Notes under the pieces: generated by a model | The model's database searches: none | The model's input: only the letters and a program-made list of their open reading frames with translations | Told to the model about the DNA's origin: nothing | Position numbers and translations under genes: made by a program | Assembly (NCBI RefSeq): GCF_001005305.1 | Contig: NZ_LBMH01000001.1 | Location: 124,001 to 188,000, forward strand | Direction: 5' to 3' | From: Kordia zhangzhouensis | GTDB lineage: Bacteria > Bacteroidota > Bacteroidia > Flavobacteriales > Flavobacteriaceae | DNA: 64,000 nucleotides | Part shown: positions 21,245-60,464 of the stretch, piece by piece | Numbering within the stretch: position 1 is the stretch's first letter | Layout: each line of letters begins with the position of its first letter

Positions 21245-21403
21245 TTTTGATTAGTATTAAGGAATGTTTTTCTGAAAAGCTGAATTATACCTTATTTTTT
21301 GACAAATGTACGATTTCGTCAAATCTTAAACTATTCTTAATTGACTTACAAAATTTCCGCTTCCGTAAGGAAAGCTGTATTTTTACGAAAAACCCTCTAT
21401 TAT

Positions 21404-22261
21404 ATGATAAAAACACTTTTAAAACGCTTATTTATAATTATATTGTTTACAAATTGTACTGCAAACTATGGTCAGCTTACATTAGTTGCCCATTTACAAG
21501 GCGATTTAGAAGAAGTTTCAGGTGTAGAAGTTTCAAATACAACTGAGGGGTTTTATATGATTAATGATGGTGGAGATAAATCACGATTGTATGTATTGGA
21601 TGATTCAGGAAAAATTTCCAAAACTATAGAAATAGAAGGAAAAAATGAGGATTGGGAAGATTTAACCAAAGACACTATAGGAAATGTATATATAGGAGAT
21701 TTCGGAAATAATAGAAATCGAAGAAAAGATTTGAAAATATATTTTCTTGCAGCAGAAGATCTTGAGGGGCAAAAAAACATAACTCCTCAAAAAATAGAAT
21801 TTTCGTTTCCCAATCAGAAAAAATTTCCTCCTAAAAAGAAAAATCGCCATTTTGATGTAGAATCTTTTTTTTACTACCAAGGATACTTGTATTTATTCAC
21901 TAAAAGTCGTGTAAAGAAAGACTATGGTCGTACAAATTTGTACAAAATTCCTGCTCAACCCGGTACGCATGAAGCCAAATTTATTAGCACGTATACTTCT
22001 TGTGATAAAAATGAGTGTTGGATTACTTCAGCGGCTATAAGTCCTGATGGTTCAAAAGTCGTTTTATTATCGCACACAACTATTCTTCAATTCACAGATT
22101 TTACTGGAGATGACTTCTTTAGTGGAAAAGCAACACAATTTGATCTTAATCACGAATCCCAAAAAGAGGGAATTTGTTTTAAAAATGACTCAACAGTGTA
22201 CATAACAGATGAAGAATCGCACGGAGAAGGAAGAAATTTATACGTATTTACCCTCGATTAA
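21404..22261 (+). CDS. Secreted beta-propeller-like protein, unknown function
   Basis: The protein has about 285 residues from ATG 21404. An in-frame start 63 bp upstream would put 21 charged residues before the signal sequence and is rejected. The N-terminus (KRLFIIILFTNCTANYGQ) is a signal peptide, possibly cleaved before Gln. The mature part has repeated short beta segments with Asp/Gly turns, such as YVLDDSGKISKTIEI, EDWEDLTKDTIGNVYIGDFGNN and DGSKVVLLSHTTILQFTDF. It ends with EGICFKNDSTVYITDEESHGEG. This pattern fits a propeller like those of SdiA-regulated/NHL-type proteins. I cannot name a family or substrate. Confidence 0.6.
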   Translation: MIKTLLKRLFIIILFTNCTANYGQLTLVAHLQGDLEEVSGVEVSNTTEGFYMINDGGDKSRLYVLDDSGKISKTIEIEGKNEDWEDLTKDTIGNVYIGDFGNNRNRRKDLKIYFLAAEDLEGQKNITPQKIEFSFPNQKKFPPKKKNRHFDVESFFYYQGYLYLFTKSRVKKDYGRTNLYKIPAQPGTHEAKFISTYTSCDKNECWITSAAISPDGSKVVLLSHTTILQFTDFTGDDFFSGKATQFDLNHESQKEGICFKNDSTVYITDEESHGEGRNLYVFTLD

Positions 22262-25642: not shown

Positions 25643-27034
25643 TTAGAATCGTTTGTTAATCCACTGAGAAACGAAGTTTAGTGCTATTGGTGCGAAAGTT
25701 TCTTCAATTTCAGCATATTCACTTAATGCTCCTGTTGTAGATGTTTGAAACAAGTGATTTAAGTCTTTAAATTGTTTGATGGTTACATCTTTATTATGTT
25801 TTAATCCTTTTTGGATTGCCATAAGATTAGGCTCTGGCAACACTTGAAAATCTTTTTCTCCATTGATTGCCAACACAGGACAAGTTACATTTTGCAGAGA
25901 TGTTTGCGGGTCGTATTTTAAAAATGCCAACATCCAAGGCGATGTAATCATTTCAACTTGTCTGTCCATCGCTTCTTTGGTCATTTCTTTTTGTGCTTTT
26001 TCAGAAATCATTTCTGTTCGCAATTGTGCATACAAAGCTGCTATTTCGTTTTTGGAAGCTTCTCCTTGGTAATTTCTACATATGTCATAAACTTTTGTAG
26101 AAATTTTTTGTGAAGCAGCAATATCTTCAGCAGGATAGCCTTCAAGCTCTGCGGCTCTTTTTCCTTGAGTCAATAAAATTTCTTTTCCATCAACTCCTGG
26201 TCCAGCTAGTAATACACAAAAAGCTACGTCCTTGTTTCTCGCTGCAATAATTGGTGCTATCAATCCACCTTCACTATGTCCTATAAAGCCAATTTTTTGA
26301 ACATCAACATCGTTTCTAGTTTGCAAGTATGTCATTGCAGCTTCAGCATCTGTAGCAAAATCAAAAGATGTTGCTGTAGAGAAATTACCTTCTGAGCTTG
26401 CTGTTCCTCTATCATCATAACGTAATACGGCAATTCCGTTACGTGTTAGATGGTCTGCTAGCACCAAAAATGGTTTGTGTCCTAATAATTCTTCGTCTCG
26501 ATTTTGTGGTCCTGAACCTGAAATTAGTATCGCCACCGGAGGATTTTTTACATCGTTTGGTAAAGTTAATGTCCCTGCAAGTTTAATATGATCTGCTTTG
26601 GGATTTTCAAAAGTAACCTCAATTGAAGCGTATGGATATGGCTTTTTAGGTTCCTGAGGTTTTTCTTTTTTTACTGCTTTTTCTCCTTTCTTTAAGTCTA
26701 ACGGAAAAGTTTGCCCAGATTGTTTAAAGGTTCCTTTAAAAGTTCCATCAGAAAACGTTGCGGTATATTCCATTCCCATCTGTGCTTGTGTAATGGTTAG
26801 TTTATTATCGACAAAAGTTGTTTTATCGATAGGAATTCCAAACGCATTTTGCAATGGACTATCTAAAGTTGTCGTGTATTCTCCATTGGCTACTGAAATA
26901 TTAAACGCTAAAGGAAGTTCCATTCCTTGTACACTTAACGCTCCTTTCCATGTTCCTGAAATGTCTTGAGCGGACGCAATGATTGCTGCTAAGAAAAGTG
27001 CTAGTTTAAATATAAGTTTACTGAGTGATTGCAT
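25643..27034 (-). CDS. Secreted alpha/beta hydrolase (dienelactone hydrolase-like) with N-terminal lipocalin-like domain
   Basis: The protein has about 463 residues from ATG 27034. The signal peptide (KLALFLAAIIASAQ) directly follows this start, so a longer upstream reading (to 27088) is rejected. Residues 24-120 form a small beta-rich domain (DISGTWKGALSVQGMELPLAF) seen in Bacteroidota hydrolases. The alpha/beta hydrolase core has LISGSGPQNRDE, LRYDDRGTASSEG, the nucleophile elbow GHSEGG, and a terminal DLNHLFQ with the catalytic His. It is probably a periplasmic or extracellular esterase or peptidase. The substrate is unknown. A putative LytTR operator lies immediately upstream. Confidence 0.85.
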   Translation of the reverse strand: MQSLSKLIFKLALFLAAIIASAQDISGTWKGALSVQGMELPLAFNISVANGEYTTTLDSPLQNAFGIPIDKTTFVDNKLTITQAQMGMEYTATFSDGTFKGTFKQSGQTFPLDLKKGEKAVKKEKPQEPKKPYPYASIEVTFENPKADHIKLAGTLTLPNDVKNPPVAILISGSGPQNRDEELLGHKPFLVLADHLTRNGIAVLRYDDRGTASSEGNFSTATSFDFATDAEAAMTYLQTRNDVDVQKIGFIGHSEGGLIAPIIAARNKDVAFCVLLAGPGVDGKEILLTQGKRAAELEGYPAEDIAASQKISTKVYDICRNYQGEASKNEIAALYAQLRTEMISEKAQKEMTKEAMDRQVEMITSPWMLAFLKYDPQTSLQNVTCPVLAINGEKDFQVLPEPNLMAIQKGLKHNKDVTIKQFKDLNHLFQTSTTGALSEYAEIEETFAPIALNFVSQWINKRF

Positions 27035-27058
27035 GTCTGTTGTTTTTTGATTACAATG

Positions 27059-27066
27059 TAAAAGTA
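27059..27066 (-). promoter_or_regulatory. -7 promoter element of the hydrolase gene
   Basis: TACTTTTA on the minus strand is one mismatch from TAnnTTTG and lies 24 bp upstream of the hydrolase ATG. With it as -7, the proximal operator repeat falls at about -41 to -54, which suits an activator. Confidence 0.5.
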
Positions 27067-27093
27067 GATTGTTTTTATCTTTTGACATTACAA

Positions 27094-27128
27094 ATTATGA
27101 TGAACGGATTATAGATTATGACGAGCGG
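27094..27128 (-). promoter_or_regulatory. Putative LytTR-type operator, 21-bp-phased direct repeat
   Basis: On the minus strand, CCGCTCGTCATAA (27128-27116) and CCGTTCATCATAA (27107-27095) are direct copies that differ at two positions, with a start-to-start distance of exactly 21 bp, or two helical turns. LytTR regulators bind paired direct repeats with this periodicity, usually just upstream of the promoter. A LytTR regulator gene lies two genes downstream in the same direction. The sequence shows the repeat; the regulator assignment is inferred. Confidence 0.55.
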
Positions 27129-27192
27129 TTTTAAATTCAATAATATAAAATCCATTAAAAACTATTCGTAAAGAATACGAAATATCTATAAA

Positions 27193-27906
27193 CTATTTTT
27201 TTCGTTTTTCAATTTCTTCTAAAATTCGTTCTGCCCGCTTTTTAAAAACAGTCAATTCGGGAAGAAATACTTTGTATGCTACAAAATATACACTAGCAAT
27301 TCTGTTTTTGTAATCAGGATCGTTTAACGCATATTCAACAAATTCTTTGCTACTTCTCATAGAAATGAGATCTGACCACCATTCATAGTTATTTTTATAA
27401 TGCGAATAGTTTTCTTTAAAATCATTCGCTCTCAATTCATCGTCAATTTGAATTTCTCGTAAACGTTCTGTATAAAACTCAATGATATGAGTTGGTAAAC
27501 TATCTTGAAAACTATCTGTATTATACGTTACCAATTGGTCATATCCACGTTTATTAAAAGTAATTTCTGGAAAACCAATCGTAAGATAAGTGTATTGTGG
27601 ATTCAACATATAATCTATACGGCGAACCGAATCATTTAAGATTTTGGTAAATAAAGGATCAACCGATTTGTAGAAACGTTGAATTTTATCAATCTCTTGT
27701 AAATCATTTGTTAAGTCATCTTTGATAATATTGTAAATATTGAATAGTTTCTTTTGTTCCTTACGGTTTTCATTCCAATTATTCAATGACACAGCAATAA
27801 GAATTCCAATAACTACTAGAATGATTTCTCCAACTGCATATGCTAGATAGTTTCCTATTTTCTTATTTTTCAATAGTTTATTTCTTTGATTTCTAAATAA
27901 TTTCAT
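27193..27906 (-). CDS. DUF6090 family membrane-anchored protein
   Basis: The protein has about 237 residues from ATG 27906. A TTG upstream start would overlap the end of the large lipoprotein gene and is rejected. The N-terminal pattern KLLKNKKIGNYLAYAVGEI, then VVIGILIAVSLNNWNENRK, is the hallmark of DUF6090: a short basic cytosolic segment, one membrane helix, and a helical outer domain of about 175 residues. Such proteins are abundant and often multi-copy in Flavobacteriia, with no known function. It follows the large metallophosphoesterase gene by 10 bp on the same strand and is probably co-transcribed. Confidence 0.8.
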   Translation of the reverse strand: MKLFRNQRNKLLKNKKIGNYLAYAVGEIILVVIGILIAVSLNNWNENRKEQKKLFNIYNIIKDDLTNDLQEIDKIQRFYKSVDPLFTKILNDSVRRIDYMLNPQYTYLTIGFPEITFNKRGYDQLVTYNTDSFQDSLPTHIIEFYTERLREIQIDDELRANDFKENYSHYKNNYEWWSDLISMRSSKEFVEYALNDPDYKNRIASVYFVAYKVFLPELTVFKKRAERILEEIEKRKK

Positions 27907-27916
27907 AGCCTTTTTT

Positions 27917-30900
27917 TTAAAAGCCAAAACCTAAACCAAAGGCAAAACGCATTCCATCATTTGAGTTGAATAACGAAAAGTTTGCAGTCAAAATATCAGC
28001 TCCATTGATCCAAATTCCACCGCCGAGAGAAGTATTCCATTTTTCGGATGTATCCCCACTAATCCAGATTCTACCATAGTCAAACCCTCCAAATACTCCA
28101 ATATTCAATGGCATTAATCCTGTTCTTACTTTTCTTAAGTTTAAACGAAGATCTGTAGTTTGCACAAAAGCCCTTTTTCCCGTAAAACGTTCATTTCTAA
28201 ATCCACGAAGTCCCGTACGAGCTCCGATAGTAGCTCCTTGATAAAATTCGAATCCGTCTCCAAAGTTTATATGTCCTCGTAGTTTGGTAGCAAGTACTAG
28301 TTGTCCACTATCAATTAATCGGTGATCAATAGCAAACTCTGGAATTAGGTATCCAAAGCCTTTTGAGGTACTAACATTATTTTTGTAGCCTGTTTCGAGG
28401 CTCACTTCCATCCCCATCGTTGGGAACGCTTCGTTATCCACATTTTTAAAGTGATATTTTGCATTTACCCCATAAAAGTCCTGTTGATCGAATACGGTAG
28501 AATTTGCGGGAAAAGTTTGATCTAAAAATCGCCCTTCTGTTCGTTCTATTTCATTACTTTCATAAGAAACTCCTACTCGAAGACTTCCTCCAAGTTGACC
28601 TCGCCACACTAAAGCAGGTAAAAATCGAAATGTTCGAATTTTAACTCGGTTATAATCTAATGTAACATCCAAACCATCATTTTCATCTGCTTCAGGATTG
28701 GGTGTATCGCTTCCAAAACCAAAGAAATTGACCGCATAATTGGGACTATTAAAATCAACTCCTAGTTGCAAGTTCCATCGTCCTATAATATTATTAAATT
28801 CTCCTAAATAGCCAATATCGAAACCGCGAGTTGCAAAATAATATGCTGCTCTAAAACTATGACGTGATGTGTACGGGTTTCGTTCAAAACCATAATTGGT
28901 TTGCGTTGCCGAAAAACCTACTTTGAATCCATCGTCGGGGTTGAAACCTATCGTTGGTAAGATTTGCGTAGAGCCATTTTTAAATTTTTTATAATTGTAC
29001 ACATTGGTTTCGTAATTATCCGTAAGAACTCTGTGACCCTTTTTTGTTTTAAATGTGTTTTTTTTGGATTTATAATCGTAATACGTTAGTTTTTTTCCAT
29101 TTTCTATATCATAAATATCATTGTTTTGACCTCCTATTAAGCGTACTCTTATATAATCATTACCATTGCCGTATACATGAAAGACATCGTCATCATCAAG
29201 CCCATAAATCCAAATTTCACTTGTTTCTTTTTTTGAATACGTTCTTTGATGAAAAATATCTTTTTTCTCACCGTCTTTAATTCGATAAGCCGTTACTTTT
29301 GTGTGTCCATTAGGCATACGTTCTACATCGAACCAATCATCTTTATTGGTTCCTTTAACTACTGCGAGTTCGTTGATTAATTTGTAATAACGATCAGAAA
29401 TTGCTTGTAGGTTTTCACGTCTAGATTTAAGATTTTTTTTGATTGTATGCATATCTTCATCTCTCACTGCTTCAGGAAATGCTAAAAAGGCTTCATCAAT
29501 AACTTCATCTGTTAAGCCCTCTTGAATAATTTTGACTTGTGCATCCCAAACCTCTTTTCCCGACTGAAGAATTAAAGTCATGTCCAAAGGATAAGGTTCT
29601 ACATTCATTCCTTTTACATCTTCTAAATCTCCACTGTAAGAACGTAATAAACGTGCCGTAGGAACAATGGCAACTGCTGTAGATAGTACGAATCCATCTG
29701 ACATTTTAGAGAATGCTTGGTCACGGTCTCTCGGTAAAGGACGAAACACACGTTGTCCATTTTCTCTGAATTCAATCCAACGCCATTGATCTTGATGTCT
29801 GTCCCAATCACCAATTAACATATCAAATAAACGAGCACGAATGTAAGACGCTTCGTCAAGAATGACATCTTCATCTTTATTCAGTTTTTTCAACATATCA
29901 TCTGTGCTTTCTATATCATCCTGATATCCAAAACTTGCTTTGTCGCTGTGTCCTTCAGAAGTATGTTCTTCTATCATATATAATTCGTCTCCAAAGTGTT
30001 CATTATATTTCCCAAGTCCTTGTTGTTTAGGTATATAATATAAGGTAGGATTGGTATGGTAAATTCCAACAGCATCTGACAGCTTTCCTACTACAAATGG
30101 AGCGTAAGGATGTGCCCCAGAAAATATATCTAGTATTAGCTCTTGTGTAACAGTATCTTCAAATTGTCCTTTTATATATTGATCTTTAAAAAGTACTGCT
30201 TGTAAATATCGCAGTGCTTGTTTTCTGAGTGCACGCATTACATATTGAGCACCATTCTTGTCTTCCAATCGCAAAGATTTTGATTGATTTCCTCCTCCCA
30301 TTCGAACAGGCTTCAATCCACCAAAAAGTGTGTCAAGATTAACAGTCGGAGCTGTTATTTCGGTACTAAACTGTTTTCGGTAGCGCTCGCCCCATAAAAA
30401 TTTGTGAAAACCAGAAATATCTGTTTCTTCTTTTGTGTATATGGAAGCGGTTACTTCCTTAGGAAAAGTTTTAGGGTATACTACTTTTACTTCTGGTGAT
30501 GGTGGGCGAATTACTTGAGTTTCAAAGACTATTTTATCTTCAATTGCTGAATAAAAACGTACATGTGACGAACCATCTTCAAAAATATCCAATCTGGCAA
30601 AACCAAAAGTGCCATACGAAAAAAGTCCACCTCCAACATTACGTGTTCCTGACATTTTAGACCCTGACCCGCTTACTATTTGTCGAAGGTTATCTTCTTC
30701 AATATATTGCAAACTATGTTCGTGGCCTGAAACAAAAATAACTTTATCATTCTCTTGAGACAGTGTAATAATACGCTTTCTTAACTCATTGTAACGCTTA
30801 TGAGACATATCTACATTGGCAGTTCCACTTGTTGATCTCACTAAATTCTTAATAGTACCTAGTATTGGTATTGGCGATAAGTGAGATTTAAAAGTATACT

Positions 30901-31606
30901 GTCGGTCATGTGGCCCATTTGTATACATTGGATGATGTAACGCAACAATTGTAGTTTTTCCACGAGCTTTTTTAATAAGACTACTATATTCTTCTAGGAA
31001 TTTTTCTCGTGTTTTTATTTGACATTCATCATTCATTGTAGGATGCTTGTCCCAATTGGTAATATACCATTGAGTATCGACTATAATCAGTTCAATATCA
31101 TCACTAATATGAATCTTTTCTAGAGGACAACCATCTTCTGGAAGAAAGGTGTTTTTTCCTAAAATATCCTCAACATATTTTTCTTGACGTTTTAACCCTT
31201 CCAACCCATTGTTGTACCAATCATGATTCCCAGGAATAAAAATTGTCCTTCCAGCATATTTTCTAACAACAGCTGTTTGTGCGTCTAATTGATGAGCTGC
31301 AAAAGCTCTTTTACTGCTTGATTCTTTTGGCAGTCCTGCAGGATAAATATTGTCTCCCAAAAAAATTGTCGTGCTATTTTTCGAGGCTTCTTTCAACTGT
31401 TTTTCAAGCATTTGCAACGCTACTGCTTTACCATTAAGTGGAGAATTCCCTGCGTCTCCGATTAGGTAAAACGTGTGTTTTATTTCTTTATCTACAGGAA
31501 AAGGACTCATACTCATTTTCTCTGCATATTGTGCTTTAAACGTTGCACAGGCATTGAAAATAATGAATAAAAAAATGAGTATTATAAATCGTAATGATTG
31601 TATCAT
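27917..31606 (-). CDS. Giant lipoprotein: metallophosphoesterase + Fam20C-like kinase domain + outer-membrane barrel
   Basis: This 1229-residue protein has a signal sequence with lipobox-like FNAC (C20). Residues 45-365 are a calcineurin-like metallophosphoesterase: IGDAGNS (D51), GDNIYP, GNHDW (126-130), HH224-225, GHEH (294-297). Residues about 430-760 contain motifs like the secretory kinases of the Fam20C/HipA/CotH fold: GGGNQSKSLRL with YVMRALRK, then RLFDMLIGDWDRHQDQWRW (592-610) and RDRDQAF (626-632). These correspond to the catalytic DRH and metal-binding Asp segments. The region from about 890 to the end (FGLGFGF) is a surface-antigen/BamA-like barrel. It would act at the outer membrane, probably on phosphorylated or phosphorylatable substrates. 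The outer domains are confident; the kinase domain is inferred from motifs. Confidence 0.75.
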   Translation of the reverse strand: MIQSLRFIILIFLFIIFNACATFKAQYAEKMSMSPFPVDKEIKHTFYLIGDAGNSPLNGKAVALQMLEKQLKEASKNSTTIFLGDNIYPAGLPKESSSKRAFAAHQLDAQTAVVRKYAGRTIFIPGNHDWYNNGLEGLKRQEKYVEDILGKNTFLPEDGCPLEKIHISDDIELIIVDTQWYITNWDKHPTMNDECQIKTREKFLEEYSSLIKKARGKTTIVALHHPMYTNGPHDRQYTFKSHLSPIPILGTIKNLVRSTSGTANVDMSHKRYNELRKRIITLSQENDKVIFVSGHEHSLQYIEEDNLRQIVSGSGSKMSGTRNVGGGLFSYGTFGFARLDIFEDGSSHVRFYSAIEDKIVFETQVIRPPSPEVKVVYPKTFPKEVTASIYTKEETDISGFHKFLWGERYRKQFSTEITAPTVNLDTLFGGLKPVRMGGGNQSKSLRLEDKNGAQYVMRALRKQALRYLQAVLFKDQYIKGQFEDTVTQELILDIFSGAHPYAPFVVGKLSDAVGIYHTNPTLYYIPKQQGLGKYNEHFGDELYMIEEHTSEGHSDKASFGYQDDIESTDDMLKKLNKDEDVILDEASYIRARLFDMLIGDWDRHQDQWRWIEFRENGQRVFRPLPRDRDQAFSKMSDGFVLSTAVAIVPTARLLRSYSGDLEDVKGMNVEPYPLDMTLILQSGKEVWDAQVKIIQEGLTDEVIDEAFLAFPEAVRDEDMHTIKKNLKSRRENLQAISDRYYKLINELAVVKGTNKDDWFDVERMPNGHTKVTAYRIKDGEKKDIFHQRTYSKKETSEIWIYGLDDDDVFHVYGNGNDYIRVRLIGGQNNDIYDIENGKKLTYYDYKSKKNTFKTKKGHRVLTDNYETNVYNYKKFKNGSTQILPTIGFNPDDGFKVGFSATQTNYGFERNPYTSRHSFRAAYYFATRGFDIGYLGEFNNIIGRWNLQLGVDFNSPNYAVNFFGFGSDTPNPEADENDGLDVTLDYNRVKIRTFRFLPALVWRGQLGGSLRVGVSYESNEIERTEGRFLDQTFPANSTVFDQQDFYGVNAKYHFKNVDNEAFPTMGMEVSLETGYKNNVSTSKGFGYLIPEFAIDHRLIDSGQLVLATKLRGHINFGDGFEFYQGATIGARTGLRGFRNERFTGKRAFVQTTDLRLNLRKVRTGLMPLNIGVFGGFDYGRIWISGDTSEKWNTSLGGGIWINGADILTANFSLFNSNDGMRFAFGLGFGF

Positions 31607-31630
31607 TGGGTTGCTTTTTTTTTGGTCGCT

Positions 31631-31638
31631 TAAAGATA
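31631..31638 (-). promoter_or_regulatory. Putative -7 element for the giant lipoprotein gene
   Basis: TATCTTTA on the minus strand is one mismatch from TAnnTTTG, 24 bp upstream of the ATG at 31606, immediately after the stop of the upstream small gene. Confidence 0.4.
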
Positions 31639-31639
31639 A

Positions 31640-31915
31640 TCATTCATTTTCTAAATGGTAAGGTATCAACAGGTAGTTTTCTAAAAAATGACGAACGTCT
31701 TCTGCTGGCATTTCGCACGGTTTCAAAAATTCATTCGTGCTCGTACAGTAATAATTAAGACTAATAAAGTGTGTTCCACCAAGTTCTTTTGCGTAAATTT
31801 TATAGCTCTTTCCTTGATTAAATTCGCTTTTTGTCACTCCATATTTTACTTGTTTATAATATACTTCCGAATATCCTATAGGTATTTTTTGAATTCGTTC
31901 TAAAAGAGTCATCAT
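31640..31915 (-). CDS. Small conserved flavobacterial protein (sometimes labelled methionine sulfoxide reductase)
   Basis: This 91-residue protein has MTLLERIQKIPIGYSEVYY, KIYAKELGGTHFISLNYY and LKPCEMPAEDVRHFLENY. I recall conserved flavobacterial proteins with this pattern that are annotated as peptide methionine sulfoxide reductase, but the classical MsrA GCFWG motif is absent, so that label is doubtful. Its ATG overlaps the stop of the glutaredoxin gene (ATGA), so the two are translationally coupled. That suggests a shared redox-related role, which is inference. Confidence 0.6.
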   Translation of the reverse strand: MMTLLERIQKIPIGYSEVYYKQVKYGVTKSEFNQGKSYKIYAKELGGTHFISLNYYCTSTNEFLKPCEMPAEDVRHFLENYLLIPYHLENE

Positions 31916-32166
31916 AAACTTTTACTTAACCATTTGTCAAGAACTTCATCTTGAGGGTTTCGCAATTTCTTTGTTCCAATAGTAATTGTTGGAAAATTGA
32001 GTTTTTTATTGGTATACAGATTTCGCAAAATTTCTGCACTTTCTTTATTTTTTAAAACATCAAAAAACAAGAAAGGTAAATTCTTATTTTTAAAAAACGC
32101 TATATAATGCTTTGTTTTATGGCAGTTTTCAGTGCCAAATAGTCGTATTTCTGGTATCGTTTTCAT
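31912..32166 (-). CDS. Glutaredoxin-like protein with atypical active site
   Basis: This 84-residue protein has a glutaredoxin/thioredoxin-fold pattern: IRLFGTENCHKTKHYIAFF at the N-terminus, LPFLFFDVLKN, and FPTITIGTKKL with the cis-Pro before Thr. The active site is C15-H-K-T, so the second Cys is missing and only a monothiol mechanism is possible. No signal peptide is present, so it is cytosolic. It forms an overlapping pair with the following 91-residue gene, and is divergent from the HD-PycTM gene with about 150 bp between. Confidence 0.75.
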   Translation of the reverse strand: MKTIPEIRLFGTENCHKTKHYIAFFKNKNLPFLFFDVLKNKESAEILRNLYTNKKLNFPTITIGTKKLRNPQDEVLDKWLSKSL

Positions 32167-32315
32167 AACATTTATAGTCGGTTTACTTCAAATTTTCTTA
32201 CGTTTATAAAATTAGAAAACTATCTACTATCACAATAAATAATCTACCTTTCGTTATACTCACAAAACATTGCTTAATGTTTTGTATTTTTACTTAAACT
32301 ATTTTTAATATTTCT

Positions 32316-33530
32316 ATGGACATTATCGCAGAGGCAGAAAAGTTTGTCGTTGATTATTTCAATCAAAATCTTGACAAAGCGTATGTATATCATAATTTAT
32401 CGCATACCAAATCTGTAGTCAGTAAAACAAAGGAAATTGTTGAAGGGCTTGAAGTGATTGAAGAAGACGCTAAACTTGTATTGCTTGCGGCTTGGTTTCA
32501 CGACATAGGTTATACAGAAGGATTTGCCAACCACGAGGAAAAAGGAGTCACTATTGCAACTGATTTTTTGCAGAAACACAATGTCTCAAATACCGATATT
32601 AAAAAAGTGTGCGACTTGATTTTGATTACTAAAATGGGAGAAAAACCAGAAACTCTCCTTGAAAAAATCATTAGTGATGCAGATTGTGGTCATGTAGGTA
32701 GCAAAAATTTTAATGAACTGACAGAGTTACTTCGCAAGGAAATTGAACTTACGCAAGATGAAGCCATTTCTGAAGCTGAATGGCTTCAAGAAAATATCAA
32801 TTTTTTATCAGAACAACATAAATTTCACACTTCATATGCCGCTAAGAATTGGCAAAAACGAAAAGGGAAAAATTTAGCCAAACTTTTAAAGTCAAAAAAT
32901 AAAGTTTCTAGAGAAGTTAAAAAATTAAAGCAAAAAAAAGCAGAACTTAAATACAAAAAGACCAAAAGAGATATTCCTGAACGTGGAATTGAAACTATGT
33001 TTCGTGTAACACTTAAAAACCATATTGAATTGAGTAATATAGCTGATACAAAAGCCAATATTCTTTTATCTGTAAATGCGATTATCATTTCTTTAGTATT
33101 GTCAACATTGGTTTCTAAATTAGACAAAGCAGACAATGCACATTTAATTGTACCCACGATTATCTTTACACTATTTACAGTTGTTTCAATGATTTTATCA
33201 ATTTTGGCAACTCGTCCAAATGTAACCGAAGGAAAGTTTGACAAAAAAGATGTAGAAAATAAAAAAGTGAATTTACTTTTCTTCGGAAACTTTCACAAAA
33301 TGAGCCTTCCTGATTTTGAATGGGCAATTGGTGAAGTAATGCAAGATAAAGACTATTTATATTCTTCTTTAACCAAAGATCTTTACTTTTTAGGAAAAGT
33401 ATTGGATAAAAAATATAAAATATTGCGGTTAACATATTTGGTTTTTGTAATTGGAATTATTGCTTCTGTAATTGCATTTGGAATTGCATTTGCTACACGT
33501 CCAGAAACATTACCAGTTATTACCACCTAA
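32316..33530 (+). CDS. HD phosphohydrolase fused to Pycsar-type transmembrane effector domain (DUF5706/PycTM)
   Basis: This 404-residue protein has two parts. Residues 1-180 are an HD domain with intact metal-site residues: H30 (HNLSH), H62-D63 (WFHDIGY) and D121/D123 (SDADCGH). A Lys-rich coiled segment follows at about 185-222. The C-terminal part (225-400) is the PycTM-like module: ETMFRVTLKNHIELSNIADTKAN, two helices at about 248-266 and 279-298, and a last helix at about 371-393. PycTM is the membrane effector of Pycsar antiphage systems, which respond to cCMP or cUMP. HD domains cleave phosphoesters, including cyclic nucleotides. No cyclase gene is adjacent. The fusion is seen; its function is inferred. 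Confidence 0.8.
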   Translation: MDIIAEAEKFVVDYFNQNLDKAYVYHNLSHTKSVVSKTKEIVEGLEVIEEDAKLVLLAAWFHDIGYTEGFANHEEKGVTIATDFLQKHNVSNTDIKKVCDLILITKMGEKPETLLEKIISDADCGHVGSKNFNELTELLRKEIELTQDEAISEAEWLQENINFLSEQHKFHTSYAAKNWQKRKGKNLAKLLKSKNKVSREVKKLKQKKAELKYKKTKRDIPERGIETMFRVTLKNHIELSNIADTKANILLSVNAIIISLVLSTLVSKLDKADNAHLIVPTIIFTLFTVVSMILSILATRPNVTEGKFDKKDVENKKVNLLFFGNFHKMSLPDFEWAIGEVMQDKDYLYSSLTKDLYFLGKVLDKKYKILRLTYLVFVIGIIASVIAFGIAFATRPETLPVITT

Positions 33531-58082: not shown

Positions 58083-60464
58083 ATGGACAAGAAAAAAGAA
58101 CAACAGGAATTAAATTTACCATTACAACTAATTATTAGTTTTGATCAGGTTATTTCTTTTTATGATCGATATATAGAAGATACTGAGCATCCTTATCACA
58201 AATCTGCTGTTGAGATTACAGAATATCTGGAAAACTATCCTGAACTTCGCGAAGGTTTCTCTGATCTTTGCAAGTTAGATACCTATAAAGACCAAATTGA
58301 TTTAGTACTAGAAGGTCTATTCCCCGAAATTCTTACAGACAATGAGATCAAAGTAGCCACAATTCCTTTTTCATTTCAATCGTTCAAATATTCAAATAGG
58401 TTAAAGAATATTTTGAAAAATGCGGGAGATGAGTACAATTTTACAGCACGAAATTTAGAAGAAAAAGAATTATACTTACACGCATGTGTATTAATATTGA
58501 ATGTTTGTTATGGATATTCAATTGATTTGAAACGTCCATTCTATTTTGATATTCCAGATAAAAAACTAGGAGTTACCAAACATTATCGCGTTGCATTTAA
58601 TGGTGATTTTTGCCAAGTCATTCCTACGGAAAAAGCACCCCAAATTACAGAAGAAGATGTTCGTCTACTACTAGATAATTATGATAATTTAGACGTATGG
58701 AAACAAAAATTTCCATTAGACAGCTACATTTTTAAAGGATTTGGAATCATGAATCTTTTTGATGTAACTTTTGATGAGACTTTATCTTCAATTCGTGAAA
58801 ACCTATTACGTAGTGATGACAATCTGGTACCAGAATTACGAAAAAATCTAAGTGAATTTTTCAATATAAAAGATTTAAAATTAGGTTTTTCTGTTTTCGG
58901 TAGTATTGACAAAGACACACACTTTAGTCGCATAAAGCGTTCTGAAAGTTTATTGTTTTCTGACGAAAATGAAGTGGCCTGCTCCGATTTCTTTTGTCAA
59001 GGAATCGTAGAAAACATTTTTAAAAAAAGAAAAGAAATTGCCATTTCTGATGTGGAACACTATGGCGAACTTTCTGGCAAAAATGGCTTTTACAGTCGAC
59101 TAAAAGCACAAGACATTCAAAGCATCATCTTAATACCTATTGTCGCTTCTAAAGGGCGAGATTTGGCAGTTTTGGAGATTGCTTCGCCACGCGCATACGA
59201 GTTAAATTCTGTAAATCAACAGAAACTACAAGATATTATTCCTGTCTTTGAAGCGGCTGTTTCACGTGCTTCTGAAGATTACCAAAATACACTAGAAGCT
59301 ACCATTCAAGAGCAATATACTTCTATACATCCTTCTGTAAAGTGGCGATTTTATGATGCTGCGGAAAATTATCAAAAGCAATTGGCAAATCAAGTGGAAG
59401 ATCCAATGATTGAAGATATTGTATTTGATGAAGTATACCCACTATACGGGCAAAGTGATATCAAAGGGTCATCAGTAGCTAGAAATGAAGCGATAAAAGA
59501 AGATCTCACAACACAATTAGAACTAGCTATTAAAGTTTTAGATGCAGCTCTAAAGCAAGATAAGTTACCTATTTATGAAGAACTTATTTTTAGAATTTCT
59601 ACGTATCTAAATGATACACAAGAAGGGTTGAAAGCTGGCGACGAATTGGGGATTTTACAATTTTTGAAAAGAGATATTTACCCGGTATTTAACCACCTTA
59701 AAGCCACAGATCCAAAACTTGCTTTACTCATCACAGAGTATATCAACAGTTTAGATAAAAACCTAAAAGTGGTTTACGATAAACGAAAAGAATACGAAGA
59801 CAGTGTAAATATTTTGAATAAGCGTTTAGCCAATTATATAGACAAGAAACAAGAAGAAGCACAAGCTATGTTTCCGCATTATTTTGAACGCTATAAAACG
59901 GATGGTGTAGAATATAACATGTACATTGGGCAATCACTGGTAAAAGATAAACCATTTAATAAATTGTACCTATACAATTTGCGTTTGTGGCAATTGCAAA
60001 ACACTTATGAAATGGAACAAATTGCCCATAACGCTAAAAAAATAATGGAAAATAAGCTAGAGGTGGCTTCTCTAATTTTAGTACATAGCAGTCCATTGGC
60101 TATTAAATTTAGAATGGATGAAAAGCAGTTTGATGTAGATGGAGCTTACAATATTCGCTATGAAATTATTAAAAAGCGAATCGATAAAGCTTGTATTAAG
60201 AATACTACAGAACGGCTAACTGTTCCCGGTAAAATTGCTATTGTATATTCGCAAGATAAAGACGAGCGTGAGTACACAAAATACATTAAATACATGCAAT
60301 CTAAAAACTATTTTGGAAAAGTAGAAAGGCTTGAGCTAGAAGATTTACAAGGTATTTCTGGATTACGTGCATTACGTGTAGAAGTAATTTATGAAGATGA
60401 TTTCTCTGAAAAATCAGCGATGACTATTGATGAACTTATGCAAGGATTTGAAACTAAACAATAG
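58083..60464 (+). CDS. Large GAF-domain-like protein, unknown function
   Basis: This 793-residue protein has no signal peptide or membrane helix. An N-terminal helical/mixed part (about 1-230) precedes a GAF-like region near 280-400 with IQSIILIPIVASKGRDLAVLEIASP. A long helical part follows (about 400-620). The C-terminal portion includes FPHYFERYKTDGVEYNMYIGQSLVKDKPFNKLYLYNLRLWQL, a strongly conserved-looking stretch, and ends in acidic residues. I recall similar large cytosolic proteins annotated as GAF-domain proteins in flavobacteria. Role unknown. It is a single gene with its own promoter and shares a bidirectional terminator with pckA. Confidence 0.65.
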   Translation: MDKKKEQQELNLPLQLIISFDQVISFYDRYIEDTEHPYHKSAVEITEYLENYPELREGFSDLCKLDTYKDQIDLVLEGLFPEILTDNEIKVATIPFSFQSFKYSNRLKNILKNAGDEYNFTARNLEEKELYLHACVLILNVCYGYSIDLKRPFYFDIPDKKLGVTKHYRVAFNGDFCQVIPTEKAPQITEEDVRLLLDNYDNLDVWKQKFPLDSYIFKGFGIMNLFDVTFDETLSSIRENLLRSDDNLVPELRKNLSEFFNIKDLKLGFSVFGSIDKDTHFSRIKRSESLLFSDENEVACSDFFCQGIVENIFKKRKEIAISDVEHYGELSGKNGFYSRLKAQDIQSIILIPIVASKGRDLAVLEIASPRAYELNSVNQQKLQDIIPVFEAAVSRASEDYQNTLEATIQEQYTSIHPSVKWRFYDAAENYQKQLANQVEDPMIEDIVFDEVYPLYGQSDIKGSSVARNEAIKEDLTTQLELAIKVLDAALKQDKLPIYEELIFRISTYLNDTQEGLKAGDELGILQFLKRDIYPVFNHLKATDPKLALLITEYINSLDKNLKVVYDKRKEYEDSVNILNKRLANYIDKKQEEAQAMFPHYFERYKTDGVEYNMYIGQSLVKDKPFNKLYLYNLRLWQLQNTYEMEQIAHNAKKIMENKLEVASLILVHSSPLAIKFRMDEKQFDVDGAYNIRYEIIKKRIDKACIKNTTERLTVPGKIAIVYSQDKDEREYTKYIKYMQSKNYFGKVERLELEDLQGISGLRALRVEVIYEDDFSEKSAMTIDELMQGFETKQ

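Follow-up and report, generated by a model that had tools for sequence, protein, structure and literature searches.

Background

Among the closest described systems to the gene analyzed here are proteins that combine an Omp85 outer-membrane barrel with an enzyme domain. In 2014 Heinz and Lithgow described an Omp85 'Metallo' subfamily with a PF00149 domain, termed it a metalloprotease and suggested that it acts in quality control or secretion; neither 'kinase' nor 'phosphatase' occurs in the main text of their paper (PMC4104836). The same paper covers PlpD, a patatin-Omp85 protein with its enzyme N-terminal to the barrel. The window analyzed here is a stretch of 64,000 nucleotides from Kordia zhangzhouensis (contig NZ_LBMH01000001.1, positions 124,001 to 188,000). 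At 27917-31606 on the reverse strand it carries a gene whose product probably belongs to the 'Metallo' subfamily, as it also has a PF00149 domain and an Omp85 barrel. It differs from the published description in having a predicted kinase-fold middle domain and an enzyme that resembles purple acid phosphatase (PAP). No report on the kinase domain of this family was found in the literature searched, which covered few subscription papers. The parts of the gene are as follows.

27917..31606, reverse strand: whole gene, encoding a lipoprotein with a PAP-like phosphatase, a predicted kinase-fold domain, a beta linker and an Omp85 barrel (open reading frame; AlphaFold2 model of residues 30-1229)
31547..31606, reverse strand: signal peptide and lipobox, residues 1-20, with Cys20 kept in 119 of 125 homologues longer than 1100 amino acids (aa)
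30509..31480, reverse strand: PAP (TRAP-like) domain, residues 43-366, with GDAG at 50, GDNIY at 84, GNHD at 126, ALHH at 222 and GHEH at 294 (Pfam, PDB profile search, fold)
29378..30454, reverse strand: predicted kinase-fold domain, residues about 385-743 (AlphaFold2 and Foldseek)
29024..29368, reverse strand: beta-rich linker, residues 747-861, connecting the kinase to the barrel (strand run in both AlphaFold2 models)
27920..28972, reverse strand: 16-strand Omp85 barrel, residues 879-1229 (AlphaFold2, Foldseek, NCBIfam)

The open reading frame encodes 1229 aa. A sequence-only reading, made earlier without database searches, had described a lipobox, a metallophosphoesterase, a Fam20C-like kinase and a BamA-like barrel in one polypeptide. 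The length and every motif that it named were located, the lipobox at Cys20. The AlphaFold2 model of residues 30-1229 has a pLDDT of 86.3 and a pTM of 0.85. The gene is present in a single copy in the 4.03 Mb genome, and the nearest relative among the matches listed is from Kordia sp. TARA_039_SRF, at 81-82%. An Rfam search of 26500-33000 gave nothing at the gathering threshold.

The middle domain

The predicted structure of the middle domain indicates a kinase-like fold with high probability. Modelling of residues 385-865 by AlphaFold2 with 70 relatives gave a pLDDT of 89.9 and a pTM of 0.90. The relatives came from the best 80 of at least 587; alignment A2 comprises the window protein and 70 of these 80, and alignment A5 the window protein and 51. 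A Foldseek search of the PDB with the model returned 403 matches with E<=10, and all 11 with E<=0.001 were kinase-fold proteins. These were chains of CtkA (E 3.9e-6, probability 1.00), ADCK3/COQ8A (6.8e-5), YihE, MSMEG_1954, Rio2 (5.2e-4) and PI4K-II (6.9e-4). Fam20C came just behind (E 1.2e-3, probability 0.99, target TM-score 0.35). Structure prediction, which the sequence-only reading had proposed as a check, thus gave the kinase-like fold that it anticipated.

The conserved residues of the domain appear to fit a kinase active site. Conservation was counted over 72 middle domains, including the window's own, taken from 30 best-match loci and 40 hand-picked loci, two of which gave two domains; alignment A1 holds the window domain and 50 of the other 71. 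The following segments stand out.

30290..30298, reverse strand: glycine loop GGG, residues 437-439, within GGGxQS (G437 in 66/72, G438 in 67/72, G439 in 64/72)
30221..30235, reverse strand: basic residues R458 and K462 of the third strand, candidate nucleotide-binding positions (67/72 and 68/72)
29783..29812, reverse strand: putative catalytic loop GDWDRHQDQW, residues 599-608, with D602 as proposed catalytic base and Q607 at the +5 position usually held by Asn (aligned to the CotH and HipA loops)
29711..29731, reverse strand: putative metal-binding segment RDRDQAF, residues 626-632, with D627 as proposed metal ligand (conservation of D627, D629 and F632)

The first motif that had been taken for a kinase signature, LFDMLIGDWDRH, occupies residues 593-604 and ends in GDWDRH; the second is RDRDQAF. 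Both are present, with residue numbers one off from those first given: the aspartates are D600 and D602 in the loop and D627 and D629 in the metal segment. Loop conservation is high for D600 (71/72), D602 (68/72), R603 (69/72), H604 (66/72) and Q607 (68/72), and the metal segment is similar (D627 68/72, R628 67/72, D629 67/72, F632 63/72). The DRH and DRD residues, whose conservation had been proposed as a second check, are therefore kept in 66 to 69 of the 72 domains. Two further acidic residues are conserved: D493, on the helix after the third strand, in 69 domains with Glu in the rest, and E546, on the strand preceding the C-terminal lobe, in 66.

The spacing of the proposed catalytic residues is close to that in two known kinase families. 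CotH has D221 (17/17 sequences), N226 (16/17) and D244 (17/17), HipA has D154, N159 and D177 (15/15 each), and the window protein has D602, Q607 and D627. The amide residue is at +5 from the first Asp in all three, and the second Asp is at +23, +23 and +25, respectively. CotH of Bacillus subtilis is described as inactivated by changes at D228 and at D251, which are 23 residues apart (PMC7821199).

Several results weigh against a kinase. The Foldseek superpositions are loose, with rmsd of 7.8-20.9 for the 11 best matches and target TM-scores of at most 0.57 among the 50 matches listed. A profile of the domain found nothing significant among PDB sequences (best E 0.17). Pfam likewise held no family for it, in searches with the window protein and 51 members; these sequence searches of the middle domain yielded nothing of use, and the answer came from the fold prediction. 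The site itself is atypical, with Arg (R458) where lysine is usual and Gln at +5 where Asn is usual. One family with Arg at the lysine position is in print, that of Lani_1194 (PMC9758233), where the kinase is likewise a prediction. Among distant members, at least three kinase positions are altered in each of L046, the first L058 copy, L065, L068, L069 and L070, and one in each of L010, L021, L025, L044 and L067; some of these changes may be misalignments. Finally, the periplasm is not known to offer ATP.

Some kinase-fold proteins carry out AMP transfer or glutamylation, or sense nucleotides. The domain could therefore catalyze such a different reaction, or could be a nucleotide sensor that gates the phosphatase or barrel. 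The atypical Arg and Gln, the presence of the atypical member COQ8A among the fold matches and the scarcity of ATP in the periplasm are in line with this. On the other side are the catalytic and metal aspartates, each retained in 68 of the 72 domains, and a spacing near that of CotH, whose activity needs both of its aspartates. Such a role is rather improbable, and transfer of phosphate by the middle domain, that is, a predicted kinase, is likely.

Relationship to known kinase families

The family is perhaps kin to the Fam20C/CotH group in sequence, and by Pfam cut-offs it is a member of neither. Fam20C is a kinase of the animal secretory pathway. The Fam20C family (PF06702) had no match in the window protein and none above the Pfam cut-off in 148 Bacteroidota genomes. 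A single sub-threshold match to its profile was found in the 148 genomes, in a second family copy in genome G130, and the matched stretch ends at DMLIGDWDRHQ. Its E-value of 4.8e-4 per genome means that about 0.07 such matches are expected by chance over the 148. The points of likeness to Fam20C are this match, the fold match and the DRH loop, which Fam20C also has. The low target TM-score and the lack of any genome above the cut-off set the two apart. Of the proposal of a Fam20C-like kinase, then, the kinase-like fold and conserved residues hold, and assignment to Fam20C by Pfam score does not.

In profile comparison CotH scored better than HipA. With hhalign the family aligned to CotH with P 0.0029 and a probability of 10.6%, and GDWDRH and RDRDQAF fell over the catalytic and metal segments of CotH. 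The unrelated phosphatase profile served as a control and gave P 0.068 with the family and P 0.33 with CotH. HipA gave P 0.044, with its DDH loop aligned in register with GDWDRH; since this is no better than the control, sequence kinship with HipA is not claimed. Set against the control, the CotH match in catalytic register counts in favor of the kinase assignment, and its weight is small. CotH and HipA themselves aligned with P 0.017 on an out-of-register stretch, so low P-values arise easily. In Pfam searches CotH (PF08757) did not reach its cut-off, with one of 51 members matching at E 0.022 and no match in the window's own genome. HipA (PF07804) had no match in that genome and is absent from the 25 of 31 families listed for the 51 members, and the PI3/PI4-kinase family PF00454 was found in none of 61 genomes.

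The described kinases differ from this family in motif, context or location. Where CotH has WDxYxxN and YDYDNTF, the window family has WDRHxDQW and RDRDQAF, and it is fused to a PAP and a barrel. CtkA and HipA are cytoplasmic toxin kinases; they resemble the domain in that CtkA is the best fold match and HipA has the aligned DDH loop with Asp, Asn at +5 and Asp at +23. Homologues of Lani_1194 and NoeA were also considered, since they too are a predicted kinase family that occurs in Flavobacteriales and has Arg at the lysine position. They are described as kinase-methyltransferases with a methyltransferase domain in 94%, and Omp85 or phosphoesterase domains are not mentioned in the text consulted (PMC9758233). 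By this description they are set apart.

A defense-related model also matched the catalytic loop. PADLOC model PDC-M03A matches about 30 residues at 29762-29854 (residues 585-615; E 2.9e-4, whole protein), and 22 of 51 family members are matched by the best PDC-M03A model at E<=0.1. The match is read as a common kinase loop rather than as a sign of a defense role.

The phosphatase domain

Its sequence places the phosphoesterase among the purple acid phosphatases of TRAP type. The PAP motif blocks are GDxG, GDxxY, GNHD/E, xxHH/xxxH and GHxH, and all five occur in the window protein as GDAG, GDNIY, GNHD, ALHH and GHEH. PF00149 covers residues 45-297 (Pfam, E 1.8e-9). A profile of 23 phosphoesterase sequences found seven PDB sequences at E<=0.1, six of them TRAP-type PAPs (best E 4.8e-13) and the seventh GAP50. 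The window protein alone matched GAP50 better (E 0.014) than TRAP (E 0.21), and GAP50 was also found by Foldseek with the AlphaFold2 model (E 4.1e-10). The metallophosphoesterase motifs of the sequence-only reading (D51, GNHDW at 126-130 and GHEH at 294-297) are all present. Compared with TRAP/ACP5, with which it shares the motif blocks and the profile match, the window protein is a bacterial lipoprotein fused to a predicted kinase fold and a barrel, and some members of its family are degenerate.

The name metalloprotease, given to the PF00149 domain in the 2014 description of the architecture (PMC4104836), is almost certainly wrong for this protein. It is contradicted by the nature of PF00149, which is the calcineurin-like phosphoesterase family, and by the PAP motifs and the TRAP matches. 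The present result corrects this label in the Omp85 literature.

Distribution and split genes

Proteins of this type are widespread in Bacteroidota. Some part of the protein was matched in 138 of 296 sampled genomes, and in the organism's own family 28 of 30 sampled genomes match, all 28 over the full length. By hand count the matches listed include at least about 81 three-domain proteins and at least about 40 kinase-barrel proteins. Some genes encode the phosphatase alone or the kinase alone. In viral contigs 21 stretches fit a pattern and none is a relative.

The kinase appears to be the part that is kept. A tree was made of 71 of the 72 kinase domains, with one degenerate row left out and architectures sorted by protein length only. 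The three-domain label changes 8 times on it, compared with 20.4 in shuffles, and at least 6 changes are forced by starred branches; the architecture has therefore changed several times. By length, 20 of the 71 rows are the size of kinase-barrel proteins without phosphatase. The three-domain proteins L037, L048 and L113 have a degenerate phosphatase site and no change at 12 checked kinase positions, and the second G130 copy (L173) has a degenerate phosphatase with intact kinase motifs. These copies, together with the 20 rows, point to the kinase as the retained core.

Two genomes of one genus encode the three parts separately. In L062 and L063 the kinase, the phosphatase and the Omp85 barrel are three consecutive genes. 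The kinase has 545 aa from a TTG start or 518 from an inner ATG in L062, and 518 in L063; the phosphatase has 403 aa, and the barrels have 395 and 394. The gaps are 13 and 6 bases and the barrel gene overlaps by 4, and PF01103 matches the L062 barrel (Pfam, E 7.1e-13). The adjacency of the genes indicates that the three domains probably act together. By eye, a lipoprotein signal opens each of the first two genes and a signal peptide opens the barrel gene, which suggests that each part can be exported alone.

Other arrangements were seen at single loci. L058 carries tandem kinase-barrel genes (2..~2212 and 2223..~4787, equal to a stretch in L196). The kinase site is degenerate in the first and intact in the second, an arrangement that recalls a pseudokinase/active pair. 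At L190, L191 and L192, from three genomes of one family, the kinase-barrel gene has a CotH-type kinase gene and a gene for a porin-like protein nearby; the CotH-type gene was recognized by Pfam in the L190 and L191 genomes and by similarity in L192.

The barrel and its orientation

The C-terminal domain has the marks of Omp85 proteins: a 16-strand barrel, an L6-type RGF/Y motif and a terminal aromatic residue. A hand count on the AlphaFold2 secondary structure gives 16 long strands over the final 350 residues. Among the 50 Foldseek matches listed, BamA is first (E 9.0e-11), with TamA at 6.6e-10. BamA as top match and Phe1229 at the end bear out the BamA-like barrel ending in Phe that had been proposed. 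The NCBIfam Omp85 model NF047779 matches residues 880-1207 with E 6.4e-13, but the score of 48.9 bits lies far below its cut-off of 200. At E<=1 the window protein had no POTRA match (Pfam, NCBIfam). One motif can be placed in the barrel.

28199..28213, reverse strand: GLRGF, residues 1132-1136, between strands 11 and 12, like the RGF/Y motif of Omp85 loop 6 (placed by AlphaFold2)

GLRGF is taken here to be the loop-6 (L6) motif, and R1134 is invariant in 52 sequences.

The protein more likely faces the periplasm than the surface, a prediction from its lipoprotein signal. Surface lipoproteins of Bacteroidota are described as carrying two or more acidic residues after the Cys (PMC12578637; cf. 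PMC5080379). At +2 to +7 after Cys20, none of 119 homologues has two or more acidic residues and 29 have one. For the signaling or surface-modification enzyme envisaged at first, the periplasm is thus the likelier side.

Alternatively, the barrel could act as in PlpD and deliver phosphatase and kinase to the cell surface as its passenger. Such a reading is about location and is compatible with the same chemistry. The position of the enzyme N-terminal to an Omp85 barrel is the same in PlpD (PMC4104836). The enzyme of PlpD is a different one, however, and the window protein has no POTRA match and has a lipobox, and its family includes split-gene versions. The conserved Cys20 argues against secretion of this kind, and so do L062 and L063, in which separate genes encode kinase and phosphatase, and the barrel has its own signal-like start; separate export of each part speaks against the barrel as a mere pore for the enzymes. 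Delivery to the surface is therefore rather unlikely, and a periplasmic position is preferred.

Gene neighborhood

The neighboring genes were counted in the window and 80 loci, mostly from flavobacteria, and in 35 hand-picked loci (L190-L224) that cover 18 families and are not random. Several of the 80 loci end close to the gene, so that their counts are lower bounds, whereas the search in the window spanned 64 kb. Three genes recur.

32316..33530, forward strand: divergent neighbor with an HD domain and a PycTM membrane domain (Pfam, PycTM E 1.2e-35, HD 4.2e-9)
21341..22261, forward strand: SdiA-regulated-like protein, about 6 kb from the gene here, with relatives that adjoin it elsewhere (tblastn, 21419-22258)
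58083..60464, forward strand: 793-aa GAF-like protein, 27 kb away here, with relatives beside HD-PycTM elsewhere (tblastn, 58119-60443)

An HD-PycTM gene is near in 56 of 81 loci and 22 of the 35 picked loci. Twelve of the 18 families are represented among these 22 loci, and five of the 22 are partial by eye (four PycTM-only, one HD-only). The fusion of an HD domain with the Pycsar effector domain PycTM beside an envelope enzyme makes a role for PycTM beyond phage defense seem possible. The SdiA-regulated-like gene is found in 58 of 81 loci, including the window, and in 20 picked loci, and Pfam identifies the L190 relative as SdiA-regulated. For the GAF-like gene the numbers are 50 (window included) and 10; the L129 relative matches GAF at E 0.0063, below the cut-off.

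Genes related to phosphate are found at some of the picked loci. A SixA-like gene of the histidine-phosphatase family occurs in 9 of the 35 and polyphosphate kinase in 7. Two polyphosphate kinase genes are present in the window's own genome, both outside the window. L198, which overlaps L057, has adjacent kinase-barrel genes by a polyphosphate kinase, a histidine-phosphatase-family gene and HD-PycTM. This association is a hint of phosphate or polyphosphate biology, and it is no proof of the donor.

These neighbors also agree with phosphate scavenging, in which the phosphatase would release phosphate from organic phosphates and the kinase would re-phosphorylate a nutrient to retain it. Retention of the kinase where the phosphatase is degenerate does not fit this. 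In addition, the PF00149 enzyme in a survey of phosphate starvation in Flavobacterium johnsoniae is a PUSI phosphodiesterase, which is annotated with PF00149 alone (PMC8115612, as far as consulted). Scavenging is quite improbable. The alternatives given here are not mutually exclusive, and their probabilities sum with that of the preferred reading to more than one.

Proposed function

The preferred reading is an outer-membrane enzyme that writes and erases phosphate at the inner, periplasmic face, and it is given reasonable though far from full confidence. The analysis itself shows three domains with predicted folds, conserved residues at both active sites and a three-gene version in two genomes; catalysis, the periplasmic side, a common substrate and the donor are inferred from these. 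A lipid-anchored TRAP-like PAP would lie on the periplasmic side of the 16-strand Omp85 barrel, together with a domain that resembles protein kinases and forms its own family. The kinase (loop 437-439, R458/K462, D602, Q607 and D627) would move a phosphoryl group onto a hydroxyl of some protein, glycan or lipid in the envelope. The phosphatase (D51, D85, Y88, N127, H128, H224, H295 and H297) would take the phosphate off or clear by-products, and the barrel would anchor both enzymes and may let substrate or product through. That both enzymes share one substrate is possible, at somewhat less than even probability.

An analogy can be drawn with animals, where the Fam20C secretory kinase has osteopontin as a substrate and TRAP phosphatase is described as acting on it. 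By this analogy the protein could be a bacterial counterpart of the Fam20C/TRAP pair in one outer-membrane polypeptide with its own channel. It would carry out reversible envelope phosphorylation across Bacteroidota without drawing on cytoplasmic ATP as the donor; polyphosphate, in connection with the linked polyphosphate kinase, might take that part. This wider picture is speculative and more probably wrong than right by a good margin.

The middle domain defines a predicted kinase-fold family with conserved catalytic residues that has no Pfam family found for it and is widespread in the phylum. A kinase joined to a phosphatase, whether in one polypeptide or through a three-gene cluster, would be a natural writer-eraser pair. 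If the proposal is true, it poses the question of how a phosphoryl donor gets to the outer membrane, and phosphorylation outside the cytoplasm in Bacteroidota becomes directly testable.

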